Positions 11,268-49,157 of a stretch of 51,023 bases of DNA are shown here, in pieces (the first letter of the stretch is position 1; each line of letters begins with the position of its first letter). The stretch spans positions 1 to 51,023 of the forward strand of contig CAIMLR010000048.1 of assembly GCA_903842345.1 (NCBI GenBank). Direction: 5' to 3'. Under the pieces are notes generated by a model, which had not been told where the DNA came from, did no database searches, and saw nothing but the letters and a program-made list of their open reading frames with translations. The position numbers were made by a program, and so were the translations under genes. This DNA is from an uncultured Myxococcales bacterium. Its GTDB lineage: Bacteria > Myxococcota_A > UBA9042.

Positions 11268-14200
11268 CTATTTGACGAACAGCACAACGTTGTCGATGCC
11301 AAAGGCCTCGTCGGACGCGGCCTGGTCGAGGTTGCTGGTGAGCGTGACGGTCGCGGTCGCCGCGGTGTGTGCCGTGAGGATCGGATTGCCCGGATCCCAC
11401 AAGTCGTCCTGGTAGTCCCAGCGGCCGCACTTGTTGTTCCAGCCGCCGGTCCACTCGTTGGCGATGCTCTGCTTGGCCCAGACCTGCGCGCCGTCGATCC
11501 TGGCGATGGCGTACTCTGCGTCCCAGGAATCCAGACGCGCGTACTGGAACCACAGCTTGGTCTGCGTGTGCGGTGGCGCGTTCACCGTCTTGGCCGGTGC
11601 GGCTCCTGCGCCAAATTGCCCGGCGCCGCCGAGGATCTTGCCGTAGTTCCCGCAGCCGCTGACCGTGCCCTGGCTCCAGCCGCCTTGGCTCTTCTCAAAG
11701 TCGTCGGAGATGAGCCGCGTCCAGCCGCCGTTCTTCATGTCGCAGTAGTACTGGCCGACCGCGATGGGGCCAGAGCTGTCGATGTCCAGCCAGTAGGTGC
11801 CGTCCGCGCTCTTGGGCAGGGCCTGGAAGATGGCGAGGCAGGAGAGGGCGGGCGCTCCGGGACCGCTGCCGAGCGCGCCGCAGACCGTGCCGTCCCCGAC
11901 CAGGCCGGCGGGGCACGTGCAGGTGAAGCTTCCCGGCGTGTTGGCGCACGTCGCATTCACGGCGCAGTTGCTCTTGCCGGTCGTGCACTCGTTGACGTCC
12001 GCGCAGGTCTTGCCGTCGCCGACGTAGCCGGCCTTGCAGGTGCAGGTGTAGCTGCCCACGGTGTTGGCGCACGTCGCTTCCGCCGCGCAGACCGCCGTGC
12101 CCAGCGCGCATTCGTCGACGTCTACGCAACCGCCGTTCGCAGCGGCGTAGCCCGCGGGGCAGACCGTGCAGTTCAACTGGCCCGTCGTGTCCATCTCGCA
12201 GATCGAGTTCGCGCCGCAGACGCCGGGCTGCGTCGTGCAAAGGTCCTCAAATACCGCGAAATCGTCGATGAACCAGCCCGCGTTCAAGTCCGCGTCGCAC
12301 GTGCCGGCAAAGGCGAAGCGGAAGCGCAGCGTGTGGCCAGCCCACGCGGTGCTGGTGAACGTCAGCTTGGTCCACGCCGCGGTCGCGGTGACGGGGGCCA
12401 AATCGGTGAACGCGCCGCCGTCGATTTGCACGGCGACGGTCGCGGACTTGGTCGCCGCCCAGTTGCCGGCGCTGTAGAACGTCAGCTTCGTCGTGGTGCC
12501 GGTCGCCATCGCGGCCAGGTCGATGCTCGGGGAGGTCGCGGTCGCGTTGAGGCTCGCCTGGCCGCTGCCACACTGGACGTCCGTGCCGTTGTTGATGTTC
12601 AGCGAGCACGACTTGGATTGCGGCGCGGGGATCGCGGGCGTGGCGTCAAAGCCCCACTTCACGGCGCCGTCGGCCAGGAGCGCATCGGAGCGCTGCCACA
12701 AGTCCAGGCTGCCCGAGCCGCAGTTGAACGGCTCCGCGTACGTGCTGGTGATTTGGCAAGCGTTGCCCGCGAGCGGTGTGTTGACGCAGCCGCCGACCGG
12801 GTCGCAGCTGTCGGCGGTGCACGCAAAGCCGTCGTTGCAGGTCACGGGCGTGCCGGCGCAGCTGCCGGCGCCGCACATGTCGCCGCTCGTGCAGGCGTTG
12901 CCATCGTTGCACGCCGCCGTGTTGGCCACGTGCGCGCAGCCGCTCGTGGGGTTGCAGCTGTCGATCGTGCAGTCATTGTCGTCGTTGCACGGCAGCGTGC
13001 CCTGCGGCTGGCAGGTGCTCGCGGCGCAGATTTCGCCGGTTGTGCAGACGTCGCCGTCGTCACACGTCTTGCCGTTGTTCTGCGCGGCGAACTTGCACGC
13101 GCCGTCCGCCGGGTCGCAGCTGTTGAGCCGGCAGAGCGTGTCGCTGGCCGGGTCGCAGGTCACGACCGTCGTCGGGTTGACCTTGCACACGTACGGCGCG
13201 GCGGACTTGGCGCAGTACAGCGTGCCGTTGCACTTGTTGCCGTCTTCGTACTGGGCGCAGTCGCTGTCGGCCTGGCAGTTGCAGGCGTTCTGGGTGCCCG
13301 CGAGGCACGCGCCCTCCTTGCAGATGTCGCCGCTCGTGCAAGCGTCGCCGTCGTCGCAAGTGCCCGTATTGTTGACGTGCTGGCAGCCCAGCGCGCTGTC
13401 GCAAGAATCCGTGGTGCACGGGTTCTTGTCGTCGCAATCCGCGACCGTGCCAGCGCACTTGCCGGCGCTGCAGGCGTCCTTGACGGTGCAGAAATCGCCG
13501 TCGTCGCAGTCGCCGGAAATCGCAGTCGCCAGGCACGTGCCGCCGGTGCAGACGTCGCTCGTGCACGCGTTCTTGTCGTCACACATCGCGCCGATGCCGG
13601 TCTGGATGCCGTCGTCCGTGGCGCCGTTGCAGTCGTTGTCGACGTTGTCGCAGACCTCCGTCACGGCGACGGGCGCGCTGCACGCGGTCAAGCCGGCGTC
13701 GCCGCAGCTGCGGGAGCCGGTGCAGCCGGTGATGGTCGAGCCGTCCGGGGCGGTCTTGCTGCTTGCGCACGTCGTGCTGGCTTTGGTGGCCGTGGCGAGG
13801 CTGCTGCAACTGCACGTGTTGCTCTTGGGCCGGCAGAACGTCGCGGTGTCGCCGTCAACGGTGTTGGCGCTTTGGCACGCGTAGTCGGCGGGGCAGTCCT
13901 TGTCGGACAAGCAGAAATTGGCGCAGTACCAGCCGCTCGCGCCGTCCACTTCCGTGCCGGTGGGCGCGGTGCCCAGGCCGATGCACGCGACCTTGTCGAC
14001 GCCCGCGCTCGGGCACGTGGCGGACGTTGCGCACGGGTCGCACAGGTGGGGGAATTTCGGCGCGCACACGGATTTGTCGTCGTCCGTCGTCAGCGTGTCC
14101 GGGCCGGGAATGTTGACGCAAGTCGTGCCGTCGCTGCACGCCGTACCCGAGAGGCAGGGGGCGAGGCACTGCTTGCCGGCCGCCGTGTCCGCGCAAACGG

Positions 14201-21722: not shown

Positions 21723-23648
21723 ATGTCGCGCCCCCCGTCGCACCGCCACCGCACGCTTGGCCCGCTGCCTGATTTGGAACCGCACCTGCCCGACGAGTGG
21801 TGGCGGACGCTGTTCAACGCCAACTACCTCAAGACGGACGGCGACGTCGTCGAGAACGCGGACAATACGACGGCTGAGGTCGATCTGCTCGTGCGCGCGG
21901 CGGAACTGCAGGCGGGCGACAAGATCCTCGACCTGTGCTGCGGTCAGGGGCGCCACACGCTGGAACTGGCGACGCGCGGGTTTCAGTACGCCCAGGGCAT
22001 CGATCAGTCGCGGTACCTGCTGAGCGTGGCGCGGCGGCGTGCCAAGCAGGGCAGCTTGCCGGTGCGGTTCACGCTGGGCGAGGCGCGCAAGCTCAAGCTG
22101 CCGCCGGGCCAGCTGGATTGCGTGGCGATGATGGGCAACAGCTTTGGCTACTTTCAGCACGCGGACGACGATTTGGTCGTGCTGGACGGCGTGCGGCGCG
22201 CCCTCAAGGTCGGCGGCACGCTGGCAATGGACTTGACGGACGGCGATTGGGTGCGGCGCAACTACGAGCCGCGGTCCTGGGAATGGCTGAACAGTCAGGA
22301 GCTGGTGGTCCGCGAGCGGCAGTTGTCGGCCGATGGCCAGCGGCTGGTCTGCCGTGAAGTGATTGTCCACGCGACGCGCGGCATCCTCGTGGACCAGTTC
22401 TACGCGGAGCGGCTGTACGATCGCCAGCAGGTCGCCGACTTGCTGACCCGCGCGGGCTTCTGCGCAATCGCCGAGCACGATGTCCTGGAAGCGGCGTCGT
22501 CGCGCGATCAGGACCTGGGCATGATGGCGCATCGCGTGTTTGTGACCGCGCGCGTGGCGGAGCGCGCCCAAGCGCTGGCCCAAGCGGGCGTGACCAAACA
22601 GCGGCTGACGGTGCTGCTGGGCGACCCGCGGCTGCCGGACCCGGTGAAGCGCGATGGCACGTTCAACGCGGAGGACTTTGACACCATCGATCGCCTGAAG
22701 CGCGTGCTGGCGGATTGGCCGGATGTGTCGGTGCGGTACATCGATCGCCACGCGCAGCTGGTCAAAGTGCTGGGTGACGACGACGCGGATTTGGTGGTGA
22801 ATTTCTGCGACGAAGGCCTGCGCAACGACCCGGCGCTGGAGCTGCATGTGCCGGCGCTGCTGGAAGTTTTTGGCCGGCCGTACACGGGCGCGGCGCCTGC
22901 GTGCCTGGGCTTGTGCGCGGACAAGGCGCACGTGCGCGCGATCGCGGCGTCCATGGGCGTGCCGGTCCCGCGCGAGTCCTACGTGGCGCAAAGCGATCCG
23001 GATCCCGCGCCGGCGTTGGCGTTTCCGGCGATTGTGAAGCCGAACATCGGCGATGGCAGCCTGGGCATTCCGGTCGCTGCAGTCGTGCACAACGCGGCGG
23101 AGATGCGTCAGCGGATTCGCGAACTGCGCGCGGAGCTGCCCGATCGCGGCCTCATCGTCCAGGAGTTCATGCCGGGCACCGAGTATTCGGTCGCGCTGAT
23201 TGGCAACCCGGGCTTTGACCTGCAGCCGCTGCCGATCCTGGAAGTCGACTACAGCGCGCTGCCCGCCGGCGCGCCGCAGATCCTCGGCTATGAGAGCAAG
23301 TGGCACCCGGAATCGCCGTACTGGACGGACATTCGTTTTGCCCAAGCGCAGTTGGAGCACGGTCAGCGGCAGCGCTTGGTGCAGTGGTCGGCGCGTCTGT
23401 TTGAGCGGCTGGGCTGCCGCGACTACGCGCGCTTTGACTTCCGCACCGCCGCGGACGGCGAGATCAAGTTGCTGGAAGTCAACCCGAATCCCGGCTGGTG
23501 CTGGGACGGCAAGCTGAATTTGATGGCGCAGTGGGCCAACTGGAGCTATTCCGACCTCCTGCGGGCGATCGTTGCCGCGGCGAGCCAGCGCATTGGGCTG
23601 ACGACCGTCGCGGCCACGAATTCCGACCGCGTGCAATCGATCGCGTGA
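21723..23648 (+). CDS. SAM methyltransferase fused to D-Ala-D-Ala-ligase-like ATP-grasp (641 aa)
   Basis: Two complete enzymes in one chain. Residues about 45-275 are a class I methyltransferase: motif [17 protein letters not shown] (68-83), acidic loop [14 protein letters not shown] after strand 4. Residues about 293-620 are an ATP-grasp ligase of the D-Ala-D-Ala type: [83 protein letters not shown] and the metal-binding EVNPNPGW. Such ligases join a carboxylate to an amine through an acyl-phosphate. The product is unknown; context suggests methylation and ligation of one peptide-like or amino-acid substrate. ATG 21723 follows GGAG by 5 bases. Confidence 0.9.
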
Positions 23649-27474: not shown

Positions 27475-28710
27475 ATGCAGGTCAAGCACGCAGGTCGTAC
27501 GGACGTCGGTCTGGTTCGCCGCCAGAATGAAGACAGCCACTTCATCGACCCGCAGCTCCAGCTCTTCATCGTGTGCGACGGCGTGGGCGGGCGCGCGGGC
27601 GGTTCAGAAGCCAGTCGCATCGCGTGCGAGCACATCGCCGCTGAAGTCGCCAAGTCCCGCAACCTGATCCGTGATTTTGCCGCCAATGCCGGAACGGCCA
27701 CGCGGCGGGATCTCGGCACGATGCTGGAAACGGCGATTAGCACCGCGAGTGCGGCTGTGCGGCGTGCCGCGGCTGTGAATCCGGATTTCAACGGCATGGC
27801 GACGACCAATGTCACGCTGCTCGTCGCGGGTGGCCACGCGTTCATCGGGCACGTCGGCGATTCGCGCGTGTATCTGGTGCGGCAGGGCGTGATGCATCCG
27901 CTGACGGAAGACCACAGCGTCATGAACGACATGAAGCGGCGCGGTCGCGGTCCGGAGCGCGGTCAGATTGGCCAAGCGTTCACGGAGGCGTTGTCGCGTG
28001 CGCTGGGCGTGCTCGATTCGGCGCGCGTCGATTCGATTGACCTGGAGCTGATCCCCGGCGACCGTTTCATCCTGTGCAGCGACGGCATTCACGGCGTGTT
28101 GGGCGACGACCAGATGCAGGTCGTCGTACCGCGCGGCACCGTTGAAGAAGTGGCGGACGACCTGATCGAGGCAGCGCTCCAGCGCGGGGCGCCCGACAAC
28201 GCGACCGCGATCGTGCTCGACGTCCTGGACGACCAGTCCACCGACCGCGCGATGCTGGTCCGTCGCCGCCTGGAAGCGCTGCAGGGCGTCTCCATGTTCC
28301 GCTACTTGCCGTACGCCGACCTCATTCGCGTCGCCGGCATCGCGACCGAGCGCGTCGTCAAGCCGGGCACGGAGCTGTGCACGGAAGGTGAGTTTGGCGA
28401 GAGCCTCTTCATCATCCTCGAAGGCTCCGCGACCGTGCTCAAGGGCGACGGCGTGACCATCGCCGAGCTGCATCCCGGCCAGCACATCGGCGAGATGAGC
28501 CTCATTGAACGCGCGCCGCGCTCTGCGACCGTGCGTTCCAAGACCGCGATGTCCGTTCTGGTCATCGAACGCGACGCGTTCTTTGGCCTCCTCAGCGAGG
28601 AACAGACGGCGGTGAAGCTGCTCTGGGGCCTCGTGCGCATGCTCAACGCGCGCCTGCGCTCGACGAGCGACGAACTCAGCCACATCAAGGCGCGTAACCA
28701 GGGAAACTGA
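27475..28710 (+). CDS. PP2C phosphatase fused to cyclic-nucleotide-binding domain (411 aa)
   Basis: Residues about 5-250 are a PPM/PP2C Ser/Thr phosphatase: VGLVRRQNEDSHFI, LFIVCDGVGGRAGGSEAS, GHAFIGHVGDSRVYLVR, FILCSDGIHGVL and GAPDNATAIVL supply the metal-binding Asp residues. Residues about 275-395 are a cyclic-nucleotide-binding-like beta barrel (VKPGTELCTEGEFGESLFIILEGSATVLKGDGV...GQHIGEMSLIERAPRSATVRS, with the phosphate-binding cassette GEMSLIERAPRSATV). Such fusions would make dephosphorylation respond to cAMP/cGMP. AAGGAG precedes the ATG by 6 bases. Its stop overlaps the next start (TGATG). Confidence 0.92.
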   Translation: MQVKHAGRTDVGLVRRQNEDSHFIDPQLQLFIVCDGVGGRAGGSEASRIACEHIAAEVAKSRNLIRDFAANAGTATRRDLGTMLETAISTASAAVRRAAAVNPDFNGMATTNVTLLVAGGHAFIGHVGDSRVYLVRQGVMHPLTEDHSVMNDMKRRGRGPERGQIGQAFTEALSRALGVLDSARVDSIDLELIPGDRFILCSDGIHGVLGDDQMQVVVPRGTVEEVADDLIEAALQRGAPDNATAIVLDVLDDQSTDRAMLVRRRLEALQGVSMFRYLPYADLIRVAGIATERVVKPGTELCTEGEFGESLFIILEGSATVLKGDGVTIAELHPGQHIGEMSLIERAPRSATVRSKTAMSVLVIERDAFFGLLSEEQTAVKLLWGLVRMLNARLRSTSDELSHIKARNQGN

Positions 28711-29518: not shown

Positions 29519-30292
29519 TTGGCCATTCGTCTTTCCAGTGCCGGCGAAACCAACGTCGGCCGCAAACGGACGCATAACGAGGACAACCTCCTTGTTATGG
29601 ACGACGTTGGCCTTTTTGTTGTCGCGGACGGCATGGGCGGCCATGCGTGCGGAGAAGTAGCGAGCGCGATGGTCGTGGAGACCATGCGCGAGTACTACAC
29701 CCGCGTTGCCAACGACGCTTCCGCCACGTGGCCTGGCCGCGAAGAGCGCGGTCTCTCGGAATCCGAGAACATGCTCAACGCCGGTATCCGCTGGTGCAAC
29801 TACACGATTTGGGAGCGGGGCCACTCGGACTCGCGCTACAAGAACATGGGCACTACGGTCGTCGCGATCCACTTTGACTCGGAGAAGGCGACAATCGCGC
29901 ACGTGGGCGACTCGCGCTGCTACCGCCTGCGCGGCAACGAGTTGAAGCAGGTGACGGAAGATCATTCACTGCTGAACGATTACTTGAAGATCGCGACGCT
30001 GACGGCTGAAGAACAGGCGAATTTTCCGCACAAGAACATCATCGTCCGCGCCTGCGGGCTGAAAGAAGACGTCAAGGTCGACCTGCAGCGCGATCAGCCG
30101 CAAGTCGGGGACGTGTACATGCTGTGCAGCGACGGCCTGTCGGGTGAAGTGACGGATCCGCAAATCCTTCAGATCATGTCGAAAACGCAGAGTAATTTGC
30201 CGGAAATGGTGAGCGAGCTGATCCAGACCGCCTGCGTGAACGGCGGCAAAGACAATGTGACGGCGATTGCCATTCGCATCGATGCCGTCTAG
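29519..30292 (+). CDS. PP2C-family protein phosphatase (257 aa), TTG start
   Basis: A stand-alone PPM phosphatase: GETNVGRKRTHNEDNLLVM, VGLFVVADGMGGHACGEVAS, NMGTTVVAIHF, KATIAHVGDSRCYRLR, VYMLCSDGLSGEV and GGKDNVTAIAI include the expected metal-binding Asp and Gly residues; length is normal. The start must be TTG 29519: an in-frame TGA ends at the base before it, and the next ATG would remove the first motif. Likely antagonises Hanks kinases such as the one at 19368-20681 (inference). It has its own promoter despite lying in the same direction as the PP2C-cNMP operon. Confidence 0.93.
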   Translation: MAIRLSSAGETNVGRKRTHNEDNLLVMDDVGLFVVADGMGGHACGEVASAMVVETMREYYTRVANDASATWPGREERGLSESENMLNAGIRWCNYTIWERGHSDSRYKNMGTTVVAIHFDSEKATIAHVGDSRCYRLRGNELKQVTEDHSLLNDYLKIATLTAEEQANFPHKNIIVRACGLKEDVKVDLQRDQPQVGDVYMLCSDGLSGEVTDPQILQIMSKTQSNLPEMVSELIQTACVNGGKDNVTAIAIRIDAV

Positions 30293-33011: not shown

Positions 33012-35522
33012 CTACGGCCAGCGCGGAAAACCGCCCGGCGGTTCCGGCAGCCAATTGTCCGGTCGCCACGTGCTCGACGCATCGATGAACTGCGCGACGA
33101 CGACGCGGCGATGGCGGGCGGAGCGATTCGGGTAGGACGCGTGCCAGGTCCGCCCCGTGTACATCAGCACGCTGCCGCGGGACATGGGCAGGGCCGGCGC
33201 AGACCCTTCCGGCGGCGCTGGGTGCCGTTCCGGGCCAACGGACCAGCCGTTCTCCGTCAGGATCGCGCGTGTCGTCACGACCTCCGTGGGGCTTGTCGGC
33301 AACAGGTGCAGGCAGCCGTTGTCCTCATCGGTGTCGTCCAGCGCGATCTGCATCGAAACAAGCGACTCCGGCTCCGACAGCAGGTACCAGCTGTCCTGAT
33401 GCAGGCCAAACTGCACCGACCCGCCGGGCACTTTGTCGATCAGCACCGCATTCACCAGCACCGGCGACTGCAGCACAACGCCCAGCGTGCCGGCGATCTC
33501 CGGACGGCGGAACAGCGCGGCGATCTCCGGGATCTGGTGCAGTTGATGGCCCAGCCGCATCAGCCGCTCGACCGGTGGCCGGTCCGCTGGAACCGTCGGG
33601 TCCCAGAACGGCACGACGGAATTGGCCGACGTGCGCAGCCGATCTGCGAAGTTCTCCGGCCACGGCGTCTGCCGTTCCTGTTCAGCCGCGGCGATCACGT
33701 GGCGATTCAGCACGTCCGTGACGTGGACGCAGACGTCGATCGGCACCACCTTCTCCAGCACGAGCAGGCCGTGCTGCTGCCACGCGTCCGTCAGCGCCTC
33801 GCGTGTCGGCGGGACCTTCGCATGCGGCGTCGCCGGCGTCGACGCTGGCAGCCGCGCGATGGCGGGCGCGGTTGGCTGGGCGCGCAACACGGGCGCGATC
33901 CCCTCGACAAGCTGCGGCAGCATCCGGTCCAGCGTGCGGACGTCTTCCGGCTCCAACTGCGCGCCGTCCTTGGTCCGGTAGCTGACCGCCACGCCATCCA
34001 GGATCTTGTACGACTGCTTGGCGCGTTCGGCGTCGATCAGGTCAACGTGAAAATCGACGTTCGCCGCGTGCAGCTTGACGCGCATCCCGGCGTCCGTGAA
34101 GCCGGTCTCGGTCACGGTCCACGTCCCCGTCGACGCCAGGCTCACGTTGGGCTGCAGGCGGGCGGAAAGGCTCTCATCGGTCACGCGCATCGGCCGGAGC
34201 TGCGGCGAGGCGGAGCGCACGTCCTCCCCAGGCGGCGAAAACGTCCACGTGTTGCCCGACGCTTCACCGGCGTTGCCCACCATCATCTGGTCCAGCCAAT
34301 TGCGCGTCTCCGCGAGATCCTGCGGCGACCAGCCCGCGGCTGACGTCACAAGCAGCGTCTCCGGATCCCACTGCAGTTGGTGTTCCGGCTTGGCGCGGCT
34401 CATGAGCGCGTCCGGCAGCACGAGGCAATGGAAGACCCGCACGCGGCAACCGACCTTCATCAGCCGCAGCACGCCTTCCTTGAACGCCCGCGGATTGTCG
34501 CCCGGCAGGCCGAAGATCAACTCCGGCTCCGGGTTGCAGACCTGCATCAGGTTGCGCATCACGGTCTCAAAACGCTCTTCGCGAAACGGCCTGTCCATCG
34601 CGGCAAGCGCGTCCGGATTGAACGTTTGCACGCCCACGTCCATGACCGGCGACTTGCAGCGGGACAGGAACTCCAGGTGCTCGTCGTTGACGATGGACGG
34701 ATAAACGCTGCCGTAGAGCCGCGTCTCCCGAAAGAGGCCGATGTCCGCTTCCGCATTGGCGAAATTGCGGAACGCCTTGGCGTTGAGGTTCAGGCCCGCG
34801 TCCACGAGGTTGAACGTCTTGACCTTGCGCTCCTTGAGGTAGCTCAGCTCAGCGCGCATCCGCTCTTCGCTGAACACGCGATGCGGCGTCGTCAGATCGC
34901 CCCACTGGCAGAACGCGCAGGACATCGGACAGCCGCGGAAACGCTCCATCGTCGCGGTGCGGTGGACGTCGCAAAGGCCGGCCAGGATCGCCGACGGCAG
35001 TTCATCCAGCGGTCGATCCGCGTGCTGCGGCAGCCCGCCTTGCCAGCCGTCCGCGGTTGGCACGTACACGCCGGGAATCGCCGTCACCGCCTTCAGGTCC
35101 CACGTCTTTTGTTGCAGGAGGGAGACGATGCTCCACTCGCCTTCGCCCGCCACCATCGCGTCCAGCGCGCGCTCGCGGCCGCGGAAGGCCGGCATCTTGA
35201 ACATGACGGTCCGCGCCGCCGGGCCGCCAAACAGCAGCCGCACGTCGGGCTGCGCCTGGCGCATCCGCTCCGCGACGCTCACGAACGTGGCGAACGACCA
35301 GACGAAACAGGAGAAACCAATGACGTCGGCGCGTTCCGCCAGCAGCTTGGTGACCCACTCGTCGACGTCCTTGCTCTCCGAATCGAGAAACCGCACTTCC
35401 CAGTCCGCCAGGTCGGGCGCATGTTCGATCGACGCGCGCAACTGCCTGATTCCCTGAGAAAAGGGATTGTAGACGCCGTGGGTGATCCGTGGCTCGATGG
35501 CACAAAACGTGATGCGCGGCAT
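33012..35522 (-). CDS. B12-binding-like radical SAM protein fused to PhyH 2OG-Fe(II) oxygenase (836 aa)
   Basis: Residues 1-130 resemble a cobalamin-binding Rossmann domain (ADVIGFSCFVWSFATFVSVAERM, VRLLFGGPAA) without an obvious DxHxxG. Residues 190-410 are a radical SAM domain with C198-xxx-C202-xx-C205 (RGCPMSCAFCQWGD) and a conserved GVQTFN and LIFGLPGDN. Residues about 445-540 are unknown; a Pro/Ala-rich linker (551-573) leads to a phytanoyl-CoA-dioxygenase-like domain (575-836) with H708-x-D710 (LHQD), distal H794 (TWHASYPNR) and nearby Arg for 2-oxoglutarate. The whole is one uninterrupted frame. Start ATG 35522 has GGGGA upstream. An oxygen-sensitive radical enzyme joined to an O2-consuming one is unusual; the product is unknown, possibly a modified lipid or natural product. 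Confidence 0.88.
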   Translation of the reverse strand: MPRITFCAIEPRITHGVYNPFSQGIRQLRASIEHAPDLADWEVRFLDSESKDVDEWVTKLLAERADVIGFSCFVWSFATFVSVAERMRQAQPDVRLLFGGPAARTVMFKMPAFRGRERALDAMVAGEGEWSIVSLLQQKTWDLKAVTAIPGVYVPTADGWQGGLPQHADRPLDELPSAILAGLCDVHRTATMERFRGCPMSCAFCQWGDLTTPHRVFSEERMRAELSYLKERKVKTFNLVDAGLNLNAKAFRNFANAEADIGLFRETRLYGSVYPSIVNDEHLEFLSRCKSPVMDVGVQTFNPDALAAMDRPFREERFETVMRNLMQVCNPEPELIFGLPGDNPRAFKEGVLRLMKVGCRVRVFHCLVLPDALMSRAKPEHQLQWDPETLLVTSAAGWSPQDLAETRNWLDQMMVGNAGEASGNTWTFSPPGEDVRSASPQLRPMRVTDESLSARLQPNVSLASTGTWTVTETGFTDAGMRVKLHAANVDFHVDLIDAERAKQSYKILDGVAVSYRTKDGAQLEPEDVRTLDRMLPQLVEGIAPVLRAQPTAPAIARLPASTPATPHAKVPPTREALTDAWQQHGLLVLEKVVPIDVCVHVTDVLNRHVIAAAEQERQTPWPENFADRLRTSANSVVPFWDPTVPADRPPVERLMRLGHQLHQIPEIAALFRRPEIAGTLGVVLQSPVLVNAVLIDKVPGGSVQFGLHQDSWYLLSEPESLVSMQIALDDTDEDNGCLHLLPTSPTEVVTTRAILTENGWSVGPERHPAPPEGSAPALPMSRGSVLMYTGRTWHASYPNRSARHRRVVVAQFIDASSTWRPDNWLPEPPGGFPRWP

Positions 35523-35659
35523 GAGATCCCCGGGCGGCTGGAGTGCGTTTTGCGCTGCCGTAGGGCAGGGTACCACGCGGGTCAGGAGCCTCCAACCGAC
35601 ACCGCAGCCGGCTGGGGGCAATCAGCTGAAATGGCAGACGAAAACGCCACGCGCGGCAG

Positions 35660-45636: not shown

Positions 45637-47523
45637 ATGACGAACGCGCGCGTTTTCCGGATCTTGCTGTGGTGTCTCGCGCTGTTGACGACGCTGCCCG
45701 CGCTCGCGGCGCCCCCGCTGCAGACCGTCATCGCCAGCCCGTTGCCGCCCGCGCCCGTGCGTGGTCCGGCTCGCGGGCCGGTGCTCATCGTCGCAGTCGG
45801 CGAGTACGAGTGCCCGTTCTGCAAACGCGCGGAGGTGACGCTGGCGCAGTTGCGTGCCGAGTACGGCGACCAAGTGCGGGTGCTCTGGCGCCACGACCCG
45901 CTGCCCTTTCATTTGCGCGCGCGCCCCGCGGCCAAGGCGACGCTGGCCGCCGACCGGCAGGGCAAGTTCTGGGCGATGCACGACGCGGTGTTTGCCAATG
46001 CGGACCTGAGCGACGCCGGGCTGCGCGCGGCCGCGGTGGTAGCGGGCTTGGACCTGCAGCGCTTTCAGGTGGACGTGACCGATCCGCTGTTGGACGCCCG
46101 CCTCGACAGCGAGATTGCCCAAGCCGCCGCGGTTGGGATCGCGGGAACGCCGACGTTTTTCATCAACGGCAAGCGACTTGTCGGTGCGCAGCCGCAGCCT
46201 TCCTTTCGCCGGGAAGTGGACGCCGCGATCGCCTCGGCCGCGACGGTGACGGGCAATCCTGGCGACCTCGACGCCGCGCGCTGGCAAGCCCACGCCGGCG
46301 CGGAGGGGGCGGACCTGTATCGCTGGCTCGTGCTGGGGCAGCCTGCGCCGATGCCGCGGCCACCGGTGCCGGAATCGGCGATCAGCGTGTGGAACCTGCC
46401 GCTGGATCCGCGGGACGCGATCCTGGGCGATTCTGACCAGGCGGAGGTGACGCTCGTTGCATTCACGGATTTTCAATGTCCGTTCTGCTCGCGGGCTGCG
46501 GCGACGGTCCATGCGCTGGAGCAAAAATACGGAAAGGCGCTGCGCGTGGTCCTCAAGCACAATCCGCTGCCGTTCCACCCGCTGGCGCGACCCGCGGCAA
46601 TGGCGGCGATCGCCGCGCAACGGCAAGGGAAGTTCTGGCCGATGCACGACAAGATGTTTGAGCATCCGCAGGAACTCGACGAGTCCCACTTCTTCAAATG
46701 GGCCAAGCAGTTGGGGATGGACATTGGGCGTTTTCGCCGGGACAAGGGCGATGCGTCGGCGGCGCGGCAGATTGACGACGACATGGCGGTTGCGGAGTCC
46801 GTGGAAGCGCGGGGGACCCCGACGTTTTTCATCAACGGCCGAAAGATCGTCGGCGCGCAGACGTTGGAAGTGTTTTCCGTGGTGATCGATGAAGAAATCG
46901 CCACGGCGCAGGCGGCGAACCGACGTGGTCCCGGCTGGTACGAGGCGCGGATCGCGGACGGCAAGACTTTTGACGACCTGGACGACGTCGCGCTGCCATT
47001 TGACCTCACCGGACTGCCGGCGATGGGCGCGGAGAATCCGAGCGTGACGGTGGTGATGGTGACCGACCATCAATGCCCGTTCTGTGCGCGGCTGGCACCG
47101 ACGCTGCGGCGACTTGTGGAGAAATATCCGCAGCAGGTGCGCGTGGTGATGGTGCCGTGGATGGCGGCCGAGCACCCGGCGTTCCTGGCCGCGGCGCAAG
47201 CGGCGGTCGCCGCATGGCTGGAAGGCGGGTCGGCGATGTTTGCCGCGCTGGATCAGGAATTGTACGCGCATTCGCATGAACTGGACGCGGAATGGGTCGC
47301 CAAGCTCGCCGCGCAGGTGGGCCTGAAGCGGCAGCGACTCGCCGAATTGCTCGCCACTGGTCAAGTCGCGGCCGTGCTCGACCGCGCAAACGCGGTCGCC
47401 GTGCGCGGTGAGGCGGAGGCCACCCCCACCCTCTTCGTCAACGGCCGCACCGTCAAGCACGCGACGGCCAGCGGCGTCGAAAGGGCCGTGACGCGCGAAC
47501 TGCAACGCGCCGCGCACCATTGA
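45637..47523 (+). CDS. Triple DsbA-like thioredoxin-fold protein (628 aa)
   Basis: A signal peptide (ILLWCLALLTTLPALA) followed by three DsbA-type thiol oxidoreductase domains in one chain. Each has the active site CPFC: Cys59/62, Cys281/284 and Cys480/483, and each has a cis-Pro loop (GTPTFFING, GTPTFFING, ATPTLFVNG). Domains 1 and 2 keep a conserved post-motif segment (LPFHxxARPAA...QGKFWxMHD); domain 3 is more divergent (MVPWMAAEHPA). Expected to act in the periplasm or cell envelope on disulfides, in keeping with the many Cys-rich lipoproteins encoded in this window. Start ATG 45637 with GGAGG 9 bases upstream. A single gene just before tRNA-Arg. Confidence 0.9.
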   Translation: MTNARVFRILLWCLALLTTLPALAAPPLQTVIASPLPPAPVRGPARGPVLIVAVGEYECPFCKRAEVTLAQLRAEYGDQVRVLWRHDPLPFHLRARPAAKATLAADRQGKFWAMHDAVFANADLSDAGLRAAAVVAGLDLQRFQVDVTDPLLDARLDSEIAQAAAVGIAGTPTFFINGKRLVGAQPQPSFRREVDAAIASAATVTGNPGDLDAARWQAHAGAEGADLYRWLVLGQPAPMPRPPVPESAISVWNLPLDPRDAILGDSDQAEVTLVAFTDFQCPFCSRAAATVHALEQKYGKALRVVLKHNPLPFHPLARPAAMAAIAAQRQGKFWPMHDKMFEHPQELDESHFFKWAKQLGMDIGRFRRDKGDASAARQIDDDMAVAESVEARGTPTFFINGRKIVGAQTLEVFSVVIDEEIATAQAANRRGPGWYEARIADGKTFDDLDDVALPFDLTGLPAMGAENPSVTVVMVTDHQCPFCARLAPTLRRLVEKYPQQVRVVMVPWMAAEHPAFLAAAQAAVAAWLEGGSAMFAALDQELYAHSHELDAEWVAKLAAQVGLKRQRLAELLATGQVAAVLDRANAVAVRGEAEATPTLFVNGRTVKHATASGVERAVTRELQRAAHH

Positions 47524-47580: not shown

Positions 47581-47654
47581 GCGCGACTAGCTCAGCTGGA
47601 TAGAGTATTGGCCTCCGAAGCCAAGGGTCGCCGGTTCGAATCCGGCGTCGCGCG
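47581..47654 (+). tRNA. tRNA-Arg (anticodon CCG); probable attachment site of an integrated element
   Basis: Acceptor stem GCGCGAC/GTCGCGC with discriminator G, D-arm, anticodon arm TTGGC-CTCCGAA-GCCAA (anticodon CCG, reads CGG) and T-arm GCCGG-TTCGAAT-CCGGC. No encoded CCA. A tyrosine integrase gene lies 260 bases downstream with its 3' end facing the tRNA, the usual layout when an element has inserted into a tRNA 3' end. No second copy of the 3' end was seen in the window, so the distal attachment site must lie beyond it. Confidence 0.93.
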
Positions 47655-47700
47655 CTAAGAAAACAGCTACTTACAGAGCGGCGAAGAGCCGAAAGACCGC

Positions 47701-47911
47701 TGGGTCACTACATTGGGTCACTACATTTTGACCGGAAGGGGCTTGCCTCGCGCGGTTTTGTTGCCTGCCACGTGTCCGGAAGCCGAGCGCGCACCCGGAA
47801 ACGGTGCCGGGGAAGCCGCCGTTGTAGTGACCCAGGGCGCCAAATTTGTAGTTACCCACGGCCTCGCGCCTGTAGTGACCCAGCCCATGTAGTGACCCGT
47901 GTAGTGACCCA
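47701..47911. repeat. Seven copies of TGTAGTGACCC between tRNA-Arg and integrase
   Basis: Two copies in reverse orientation (47701-47712, 47714-47725; TGGGTCACTACA) and five forward (47823-47834, 47847-47858 with one mismatch, 47871-47882, 47888-47899, 47900-47911). The first three forward copies are spaced exactly 24 bases apart, the rest 17 and 12. Clustered short repeats between a tRNA and an integrase are typical of arm-type integrase or directionality-factor sites; multiple terminal repeats of an IS21-type element relic are the alternative. Confidence 0.85.
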
Positions 47912-47915
47912 GGCG

Positions 47916-49157
47916 CTACGGCTTCGGCTTGGTGGGCAGGGCGAGGACCGCGGCCATCTTCTCGGCCGGGCCAGCGCCGTAGTAGCGCGCAGTCATCTCC
48001 TCGGTCGTATGCCCCATAATACTGCGGATCGTAAGGCGATCGACCTGCTGCCGGAGCAGGTTGCTGTTCAACGAGCGCCGCAACACCTGCGCGCCAAGGT
48101 TGATGTCCATGCCGAGCTCCTCGGCGATGTTCTCGAACGCCCGGTCGAGCGAGTGCGCGCTGCGCAGCTTGCCGTTGGCGGTCGGGAAGACCAGGTTCGA
48201 CGCGAGCCCGCCGTGCTGATCCCGGATCATCTGCTCGCGGTGGTCCTTCAGCAGGTCGAGCAGGATAGGGTGCAGTGGCACGGTGCGCTGGGCCTTCGTC
48301 TTGGTCGTCTCAGTCAGCACGCCGCGGGAAACCGAGCGTTTCACAATGATTTCGCACTTGTCGAAGTTGATCGTGTCCCATTTCAGGCCGTAGAGTTCGC
48401 CGGCGCGCATGCCGGTCAACGCCAGGCATGCGATCTCGGCGAAGCGGTCGGGCGCGCGCTTCTTCGCGGCCACCAGCAGATCGTACAGCAAGTCCGTGTC
48501 GACGGTGCGCTGCTCGCGCTTCAGCTCCGCCTGCGGCCTTTCCGGCGGACGCACCCGGCTGGTCGGGTCCGCGAAGCCGAGGTCGGCAGCCATGTCCTTG
48601 AGCACCACGCTCAGCACGCGCCACCACTGCTTCAGCGTGTCGTGCGAGTACGGCTCGACAACTTTCTCGACGACGGTCTTCTTCCTGCCGTCAGGGCCGA
48701 TGACCTTGGTCCGGCGCTCCCAGACCTTTTCCTGCTCCTCGGCCCAGACGACCCAGGTCTCGACACATTGCCGGTTGACCTCAGAGACCTGAAGCCCGCC
48801 GATGCGCGGCAGGATGTGCTTGGATAGGGCGATCTCGTAGGTCTTGGCCGCCGACGGCTTCAGGCGCGACTTCCTAATCTTCAGCCAGCGCTCGCAGTAG
48901 TCTTCCACGGTCTGGCTTGTAGCCTGCGGGTGAGGCGTAGGGATCGCTTGCGGCGGGTTGCGCGCCTCCGACTTCAGCGTCTCCACGACCTGCACGGCGT
49001 CCGCTTCCGACGACCCGGCCGGCAGCGTCCGCAGGAGCGTCTTGACCTTGCCGTCCTCCAGCCGCACCACCGCTCGGGCGACCAGCCGTCCGTCCGGCAG
49101 CAGGTACACGCCCGCGTGGCGCGGGGAGGGCTTGGCGGTCTTGAGGTTGATTGCCAT
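47916..49157 (-). CDS. Tyrosine recombinase / integrase (413 aa)
   Basis: Catalyses site-specific recombination of an integrated element. N-terminal residues 1-65 look like a small arm-binding domain (GVYLLPDGRLVARAVVRLEDGKVKTLLRTLPAG); 80-180 is a SAM-like core-binding domain (TVEDYCERWLKIRKSRLKPSAAKTYEIALSKHILPRIGG); the catalytic domain shows LTGMRAGELYGLKW (first Arg), a Lys hairpin (TKTKAQRTVPLHP), QVLRRSLNSNLL (second Arg; His of HxxR is Gln) and IMGHTTEEMTARYYG (His and nucleophile Tyr). Start ATG 49157 has GGAG 6 bases upstream, and lies inside the upstream gene. Likely integrates at tRNA-Arg. Confidence 0.9.
   Translation of the reverse strand: MAINLKTAKPSPRHAGVYLLPDGRLVARAVVRLEDGKVKTLLRTLPAGSSEADAVQVVETLKSEARNPPQAIPTPHPQATSQTVEDYCERWLKIRKSRLKPSAAKTYEIALSKHILPRIGGLQVSEVNRQCVETWVVWAEEQEKVWERRTKVIGPDGRKKTVVEKVVEPYSHDTLKQWWRVLSVVLKDMAADLGFADPTSRVRPPERPQAELKREQRTVDTDLLYDLLVAAKKRAPDRFAEIACLALTGMRAGELYGLKWDTINFDKCEIIVKRSVSRGVLTETTKTKAQRTVPLHPILLDLLKDHREQMIRDQHGGLASNLVFPTANGKLRSAHSLDRAFENIAEELGMDINLGAQVLRRSLNSNLLRQQVDRLTIRSIMGHTTEEMTARYYGAGPAEKMAAVLALPTKPKP

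Follow-up and report, generated by a model that had tools for sequence, protein, structure and literature searches.

A single gene of an uncultured lake bacterium of the Myxococcales encodes a cobalamin radical SAM (B12-rSAM) enzyme joined to a phytanoyl-CoA-dioxygenase-like (PhyH) Fe/2OG oxygenase, and the same fusion is found in three sister species (G002, G003, and G004). The gene lies in the window, which here means the whole stretch of 51,023 nucleotides analyzed. We consider that it probably encodes one bifunctional tailoring enzyme, which would perform radical methylation and PhyH oxidation on one intermediate within a gene system marked by a ~300-aa protein (DYC) and by another radical SAM protein (rSAM2), the fusion having arisen once. 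Because both halves belong to this DYC-centered gene set, two successive finishing steps on one natural product appear most likely. The set itself is widespread and apparently undescribed.

The fusion gene runs on the minus strand from an ATG at 35522 to 33012, and the translation bears out the uninterrupted 836-residue frame described in an earlier note made from the sequence alone, which had not given the strand. The interval is open solely on this strand; a plus-strand reading contains a stop and is implausible codon-wise. A longer form could start at a TTG at 35621, but the relatives all share the MPRIT-type start of the 836-aa form, and GGGGAT is found just 5′ of the ATG. From the N-terminus, the protein consists of B12-binding, radical SAM (CPMSCAFC), Cext, Pro/Ala linker, and PhyH segments, Cext being a domain that no library names. 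The three Pfam domains (B12-binding, Radical_SAM, and PhyH) all exceed their curated cut-offs, and both the CxxxCxxC (C198/C202/C205) and the HxD...H (H708/D710/H794) motifs are present, so that the note had correctly recognized the two enzyme types and their motifs.

Table 1. Features of the fusion gene, with positions in the window.
Feature	Position	Strand	Evidence
Fusion gene, B12-binding/radical SAM/Cext/linker/PhyH, 836 aa	33012..35522	-	Translation, Pfam, orthologous fusions in G002, G003, G004
B12-binding domain, residues 39-129	35136..35408	-	PF02310, 2.4e-11
W75, aligned with TokK Trp76	35298..35300	-	7kdx alignment; invariant in 8 relatives
Radical SAM core, residues 193-349	34476..34946	-	PF04055, 1.2e-10
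[4Fe-4S] motif C198 PMS C202 AF C205	34908..34931	-	Sequence; invariant in 8 relatives
Cext, residues ~455-550	33873..34160	-	Profile matches in rSAM2 and PhyH fusions; AlphaFold model
Pro/Ala linker, residues 553-578, of differing length and sequence	33789..33866	-	Comparison of relatives; dN/dS
PhyH domain, residues 581-807	33102..33782	-	PF05721, 1e-22; PHYHD1 2opw, 2.9e-19
Fe ligands H708 and D710 (HQD)	33393..33401	-	Kept in four fusions and stand-alone orthologues
Distal Fe ligand H794	33141..33143	-	Intact in the relatives
R803, candidate 2-oxoglutarate-binding Arg, nine residues past H794	33114..33116	-	PHYHD1 alignment; conserved in four fusions

Elsewhere, the window contains a 641-aa frame with a class I methyltransferase and a D-Ala-D-Ala-ligase/ATP-grasp domain (21723-23648), a PP2C-type phosphatase that ends in a cyclic-nucleotide-binding domain (27475-28710) followed two genes later by another PP2C-like gene (29519-30292), and a protein with three tandem DsbA/thioredoxin-like domains (45637-47523). 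A tRNA-Arg (CCG) precedes an opposite-strand tyrosine recombinase (47581-49157), which is a likely boundary of an integrated element.

The genomes were assembled from metagenomes, and a frameshift or a contig chimera might have joined two genes artificially. This is extremely improbable, because four independent assemblies share the fusion in frame, with diverged DNA and varied linkers. The homologous fusions that the note had suggested looking for are full-length, use the same frame, and are 72-77% identical in protein sequence. In all four assemblies the locus lies on the argH side, with the identical junction and the same neighbors, whereas the fusion-gene DNA is only 71-77% identical (23-29% different). 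Each coding length is divisible by three, and the linkers differ in length by indels of whole codons. Two grounds for doubt raised in the note, a frameshift at 33770-34000 and degraded metal ligands in relatives, did not materialize: no frameshift was found, and the ligands are intact across the relatives. Values of dN were 0.09-0.20 for the B12/rSAM part and 0.16-0.29 for PhyH, compared with a dS of 0.5-1.2; dN/dS is well below 1 in both catalytic halves and near 1 in the linker. Thus, the B12/rSAM and PhyH halves are under purifying selection and the near-neutral linker joint is not.

A fifth genome of the genus (G001) encodes the radical SAM half with Cext and without PhyH. This unfused gene is not truncated by the end of a contig. 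It adjoins rSAM2 and DYC, as does the unfused B12-rSAM gene of G018. In the tree, the fused forms make up one group nested within unfused ones, with G001 as sister, followed by G294/G341. Given this nesting, and because the two genes are operon neighbors in relatives, the best explanation is that the fusion joined two genes of the same cluster, once, in this genus. A match at locus L085 that spans residues 22-812 was considered as a second copy of the fusion and rejected; there, the adjacent PhyH lies in a different frame and is unfused.

The N-terminal half has the traits of class 1 cobalamin radical SAM enzymes: a B12-binding Rossmann domain that precedes a radical SAM core, both above the Pfam cut-offs, an invariant CxxxCxxC motif, and a TokK-type Trp in place of the His ligand. 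Its best match in the PDB is TokK (7kdx; 9.7e-26, residues 65-407), and CysS is the next among cobalamin radical SAM enzymes. In TokK, Trp76 takes the place of a ligand beneath the cobalt, and the corresponding residue is Asn in the non-methylase OxsB and Arg in TsrM (PMC13331322); W75 of the fusion aligns with Trp76 by sequence only. The best NCBIfam model, that of the KedN5 methylase, gave 110 bits against a cut-off of 700, and we therefore did not file the fusion as a member of the KedN5 family. Because TokK, CysS, and KedN5 are the top matches and W75 aligns with Trp76, we infer a TokK/CysS-like (class 1) enzyme whose best-guess reaction is radical C-methylation. Through methylcobalamin radical chemistry, it would methylate an intermediate of a natural product at an unactivated carbon. 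The same half, in the same pathway and fusion, might instead catalyze a ring contraction, a cyclization, or another reaction of the 5'-deoxyadenosyl radical, cobalamin serving some other purpose and the PhyH half oxidizing the product afterwards. Cobalamin radical SAM enzymes with chemistry other than methylation are indeed known (PMC13331322), and the fusion reaches the cut-off of no characterized family. However, methylases (TokK, CysS, and the KedN5 profile) head the sequence matches, and the predicted under-cobalt residue is the Trp of TokK and not the Asn or Arg of OxsB and TsrM; we regard a non-methylase as rather unlikely.

The PhyH half matches PF05721 with 81.9 bits (gathering score 22), and its HxD...H triad is intact and accompanied by the distal R803. 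In PhyH-like halogenases, the Asp of the HxD motif is replaced by Ala or Gly; D710 is present in all fusions and the halogenase-type replacement is absent. To judge from this motif, the half fits oxygenation over halogenation, and with O2 and 2-oxoglutarate it would hydroxylate or otherwise oxidize the intermediate that the N-terminal half methylates, in this order or possibly the reverse. PhyH is found repeatedly in the same surroundings in relatives. G003 and G004 have an additional stand-alone PhyH protein, 57-58% identical to the fused one, that adjoins DYC and rSAM2, and the PhyH orthologue adjoins DYC in G341 and G370. G294 has a same-strand run of separate genes for DYC, rSAM2-Cext, a Rieske oxygenase, the PhyH orthologue (34-36% identity), a 290-aa protein, B12-rSAM-Cext (37% identity), a second PhyH protein, a GDSL protein, and a carbamoyltransferase. 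We found no close PhyH homologue in five genomes that have B12-rSAM and DYC (G001, G016, G018, G021, and G094), and hydroxylation is therefore not a constant step of the system. Two PhyH-like genes behind B12-rSAM in a member of the Polyangiaceae (L086:11733-12467 and 12496-13272) seemingly lack the HxD motif and are possibly degenerate or non-catalytic, the alignment being uncertain.

The genome of the window carries DYC and rSAM2 on a different contig (C4) from the fusion (C48). The link to DYC therefore rests on co-occurrence and on synteny in relatives. Among 379 genomes of the phylum, B12-rSAM orthologues (threshold E < 1e-50) are present in 24, DYC in 32, and both in 23 (Fisher p about 1.6e-28; by genus 15/16, p about 1e-18); in nine genomes with DYC, no B12-rSAM orthologue was detected. 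Within the family, every genome with B12-rSAM has rSAM2, a protein with a CxxxCxxC motif and a loose resemblance to HxsC4/MoaA, together with DYC. The two normally adjoin each other in the window genus, in G016, G018, and G021, and elsewhere. In a scan of 84,980 species, members of the B12-rSAM family turned up in Planctomycetota, in Pseudomonadota (Methylobacterium, Rhodobacteraceae, and Betaproteobacteria), in Binatota, and in Myxococcota. They often form tandem pairs, and DYC and rSAM2 are repeatedly close by. Planctomycete and alphaproteobacterial clusters add a WelO5-like Fe/2OG enzyme, a tryptophan-halogenase-like flavoenzyme, and methyltransferases. Gene borders at the compared loci came from a simple gene caller that is unreliable in some high-GC stretches (for example L081, L085, and L028), and small neighbors may therefore be wrong. 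At one locus (L078:9917-13261), a frame of ~1115 aa contains two complete tandem cobalamin radical SAM modules, each with its own CxxxCxxC; most other lineages encode this pair as separate genes.

DYC has no match among the Pfam and NCBIfam families. A model built from 16 relatives (pLDDT 88.9, pTM 0.88) was compared with solved structures by Foldseek, and all 27 PDB matches at E < 1e-3 were ABBA prenyltransferases, of the cyanobactin type (DciF, KgpF, and LimF) and of the hapalindole type (AmbP1, AmbP3, and FamD1). Because the TM-scores are modest (0.34-0.47), we take the ABBA fold class of the modeled protein as well supported and prenyl transfer as a predicted activity. DYC-catalyzed prenylation and a radical step by rSAM2 would make the intermediate on which the fusion acts. 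Sequence searches of DYC against the PDB returned short chance matches to a stretch of a viral envelope protein (TVWGIKQ), which were discarded. DYC and rSAM2 are followed by a third gene, P403, in the genome of the window (L048:13862-14995, on C4) and in relatives. The P403 family is related to F6 of the planctomycete clusters (hhalign 94%); its assignment as a LynF/TruF/PatF-type prenyltransferase reached only E = 1.1 and was left as a weak lead.

Between the two halves, the earlier note had placed an unknown domain and a Pro/Ala linker, and both are real. The AlphaFold model of the domain, Cext, shows a helix, five beta strands, and a helix, with pLDDT mostly 89-97; it has no Pfam match and no Foldseek match to solved structures at E < 0.1. 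A profile was built from the B12-rSAM copies alone, and matches outside this training set were counted. In addition, rSAM2 ends in Cext (2e-8 for G001 and 2e-6 for the genome of the window), and the domain is part of a PhyH-Cext-PhyH protein (L085, 5e-21) and of a Cext-PhyH-amidohydrolase protein (L094, 4e-10) whose gene begins right behind the B12-rSAM gene. Weaker copies are found N-terminally in other radical SAM proteins of the class; the profile had no significant match in the short B12-rSAM and rSAM2 proteins of planctomycetes and alphaproteobacteria. In the genome of the window, a radical SAM/SPASM protein also has an N-terminal Cext-like domain (L142:3557-5182, G000:C28). Because several enzymes of one pathway share Cext, it is probably a docking or substrate-recognition module common to B12-rSAM, rSAM2, and some PhyH proteins. 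RiPP recognition elements are PqqD-like domains common to unrelated modifying enzymes of one pathway. Cext matches none of these by Pfam or structure.

A second fusion bears on why the halves were joined. The cultured myxobacterium Paraliomyxa miuraensis has a 1157-aa rSAM2-PhyH-amidohydrolase frame (L158:5642-9115, G053:C68; rSAM2 motif CHSACRFC; PhyH 7.8e-21) that lies behind two DYC genes and directly before B12-rSAM. This fusion is independent of that in the window, so that PhyH has become fused with radical SAM enzymes of two kinds. The earlier note had proposed methylation followed by hydroxylation as an example, which fits TokK and CysS as the nearest solved relatives, W75 at the place of Trp76, and the intact HxD. 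Its further claim, that joining an O2-labile cluster to an O2-using oxygenase implies substrate channeling or oxygen control, finds no support in the sequences, because relatives run the halves apart, as separate neighboring genes in G294, or keep B12-rSAM without a close PhyH. The halves might even act on different intermediates or at far-apart steps and have been joined, without coupling or channeling, because neighboring genes fuse easily. The near-neutral and variable linker would agree with this, as would the several relatives that have B12-rSAM without PhyH and those in which PhyH is a separate protein. Such uncoupled action is a possibility to be taken seriously, though not the one we favor, as the independent fusion in Paraliomyxa and the joining of Cext to PhyH in two further lineages suggest that proximity is favored. 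For the bifunctional enzyme acting on one intermediate, the main effect of the fusion would be to fix the co-expression and proximity of the two steps.

The substrate might also be a ribosomal peptide or a secreted protein, the fusion then being a peptide-modifying enzyme and Cext its leader-binding domain. Among the structural matches of DYC, KgpF, LimF, and DciF are cyanobactin-type peptide prenyltransferases (on this type, see AutF; PMC9609003). In Methylobacterium and in some planctomycetes, the B12-rSAM pair has genes for giant secreted repeat proteins next to it, and the gene of a 965-aa Cys-rich lipoprotein ends 1 base before B12-rSAM in G016 and G021. However, the gaps of about 1 to 80 bases in the cluster of the window genus leave no room for a precursor peptide gene between the genes of that cluster, Cext, with neither a Pfam match nor a solved relative, is not recognizable as a RiPP recognition element, and the Rieske, carbamoyltransferase, and amidohydrolase partners look like small-molecule tailoring enzymes. 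Overall, a peptide or protein substrate seems improbable to us. The repeat proteins (L073, L079, and L087 in Methylobacterium; L070, L091, and L093) look secreted, have 1500-2600 aa, and occur also near the WelO5-like and methyltransferase partners; they are possible substrates or chance neighbors. The lipoprotein genes (L026:1856-4747 and L027:13014-15908), from two species, encode an identical C-terminus, GFSCPGCNGICLQCTIFGGIQIKYCLAF.

A bolder reading, which we offer tentatively, extends the bifunctional enzyme to an undescribed natural-product system of Myxococcota, Planctomycetota, Pseudomonadota, and Binatota, with DYC, as an ABBA-fold prenyltransferase family, and radical SAM enzymes at its core. 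In Myxococcota, Cext would be a new recognition domain that ties the B12-radical, radical, and O2-dependent enzymes to a shared intermediate or carrier, much as a RiPP recognition element does. The recurrent fusion of radical SAM and PhyH domains would then reflect the direct passage of Cext-bound intermediates from one to the other.

An incomplete literature search returned no publication on a cobalamin radical SAM-PhyH fusion or on the present gene combination. Each half of the fusion belongs to a known kind, and the surrounding system may deserve the higher claim to novelty: the fusion points to a broad unannotated gene system with an unrecognized ABBA-fold family and an unnamed shared domain, both of which (DYC and Cext) are missed by ordinary family searches in Pfam and NCBIfam. 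The fusion also offers one polypeptide for the joint study of radical C-H chemistry at an O2-sensitive cluster and an O2-dependent oxygenase. Relatives in which the halves are apart, the second half is absent, or another radical SAM enzyme is fused to PhyH provide natural controls, and the product can be sought in cultured hosts such as Paraliomyxa miuraensis and Methylobacterium.

Compared with known systems, the fusion resembles the TokK, CysS, and KedN5 methylases in its order of B12-binding and radical SAM domains, its CxxxCxxC motif, and the Trp at the place of Trp76, but it is distant from them in sequence and has Cext and PhyH, which they lack. Like a RiPP recognition element, Cext is a domain of ~100 aa carried by several enzyme types of one pathway; it differs in its predicted alpha/beta5/alpha fold, which has no Pfam or structural match, and no precursor peptide was observed. 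With the PHYHD1/SnoK family the PhyH half has in common a complete PF05721 domain, the HxD...H motif, and the following Arg, but it is joined to a radical SAM enzyme, and its nearest relatives are the cluster-borne PhyH proteins and not phytanoyl-CoA hydroxylases. DYC, finally, shares its predicted fold with the ABBA prenyltransferases of the cyanobactin (LynF/TruF/PatF) and hapalindole (AmbP1/FamD1) pathways, whereas it is only 10-14% identical to its structural matches and always occurs here with radical SAM partners.
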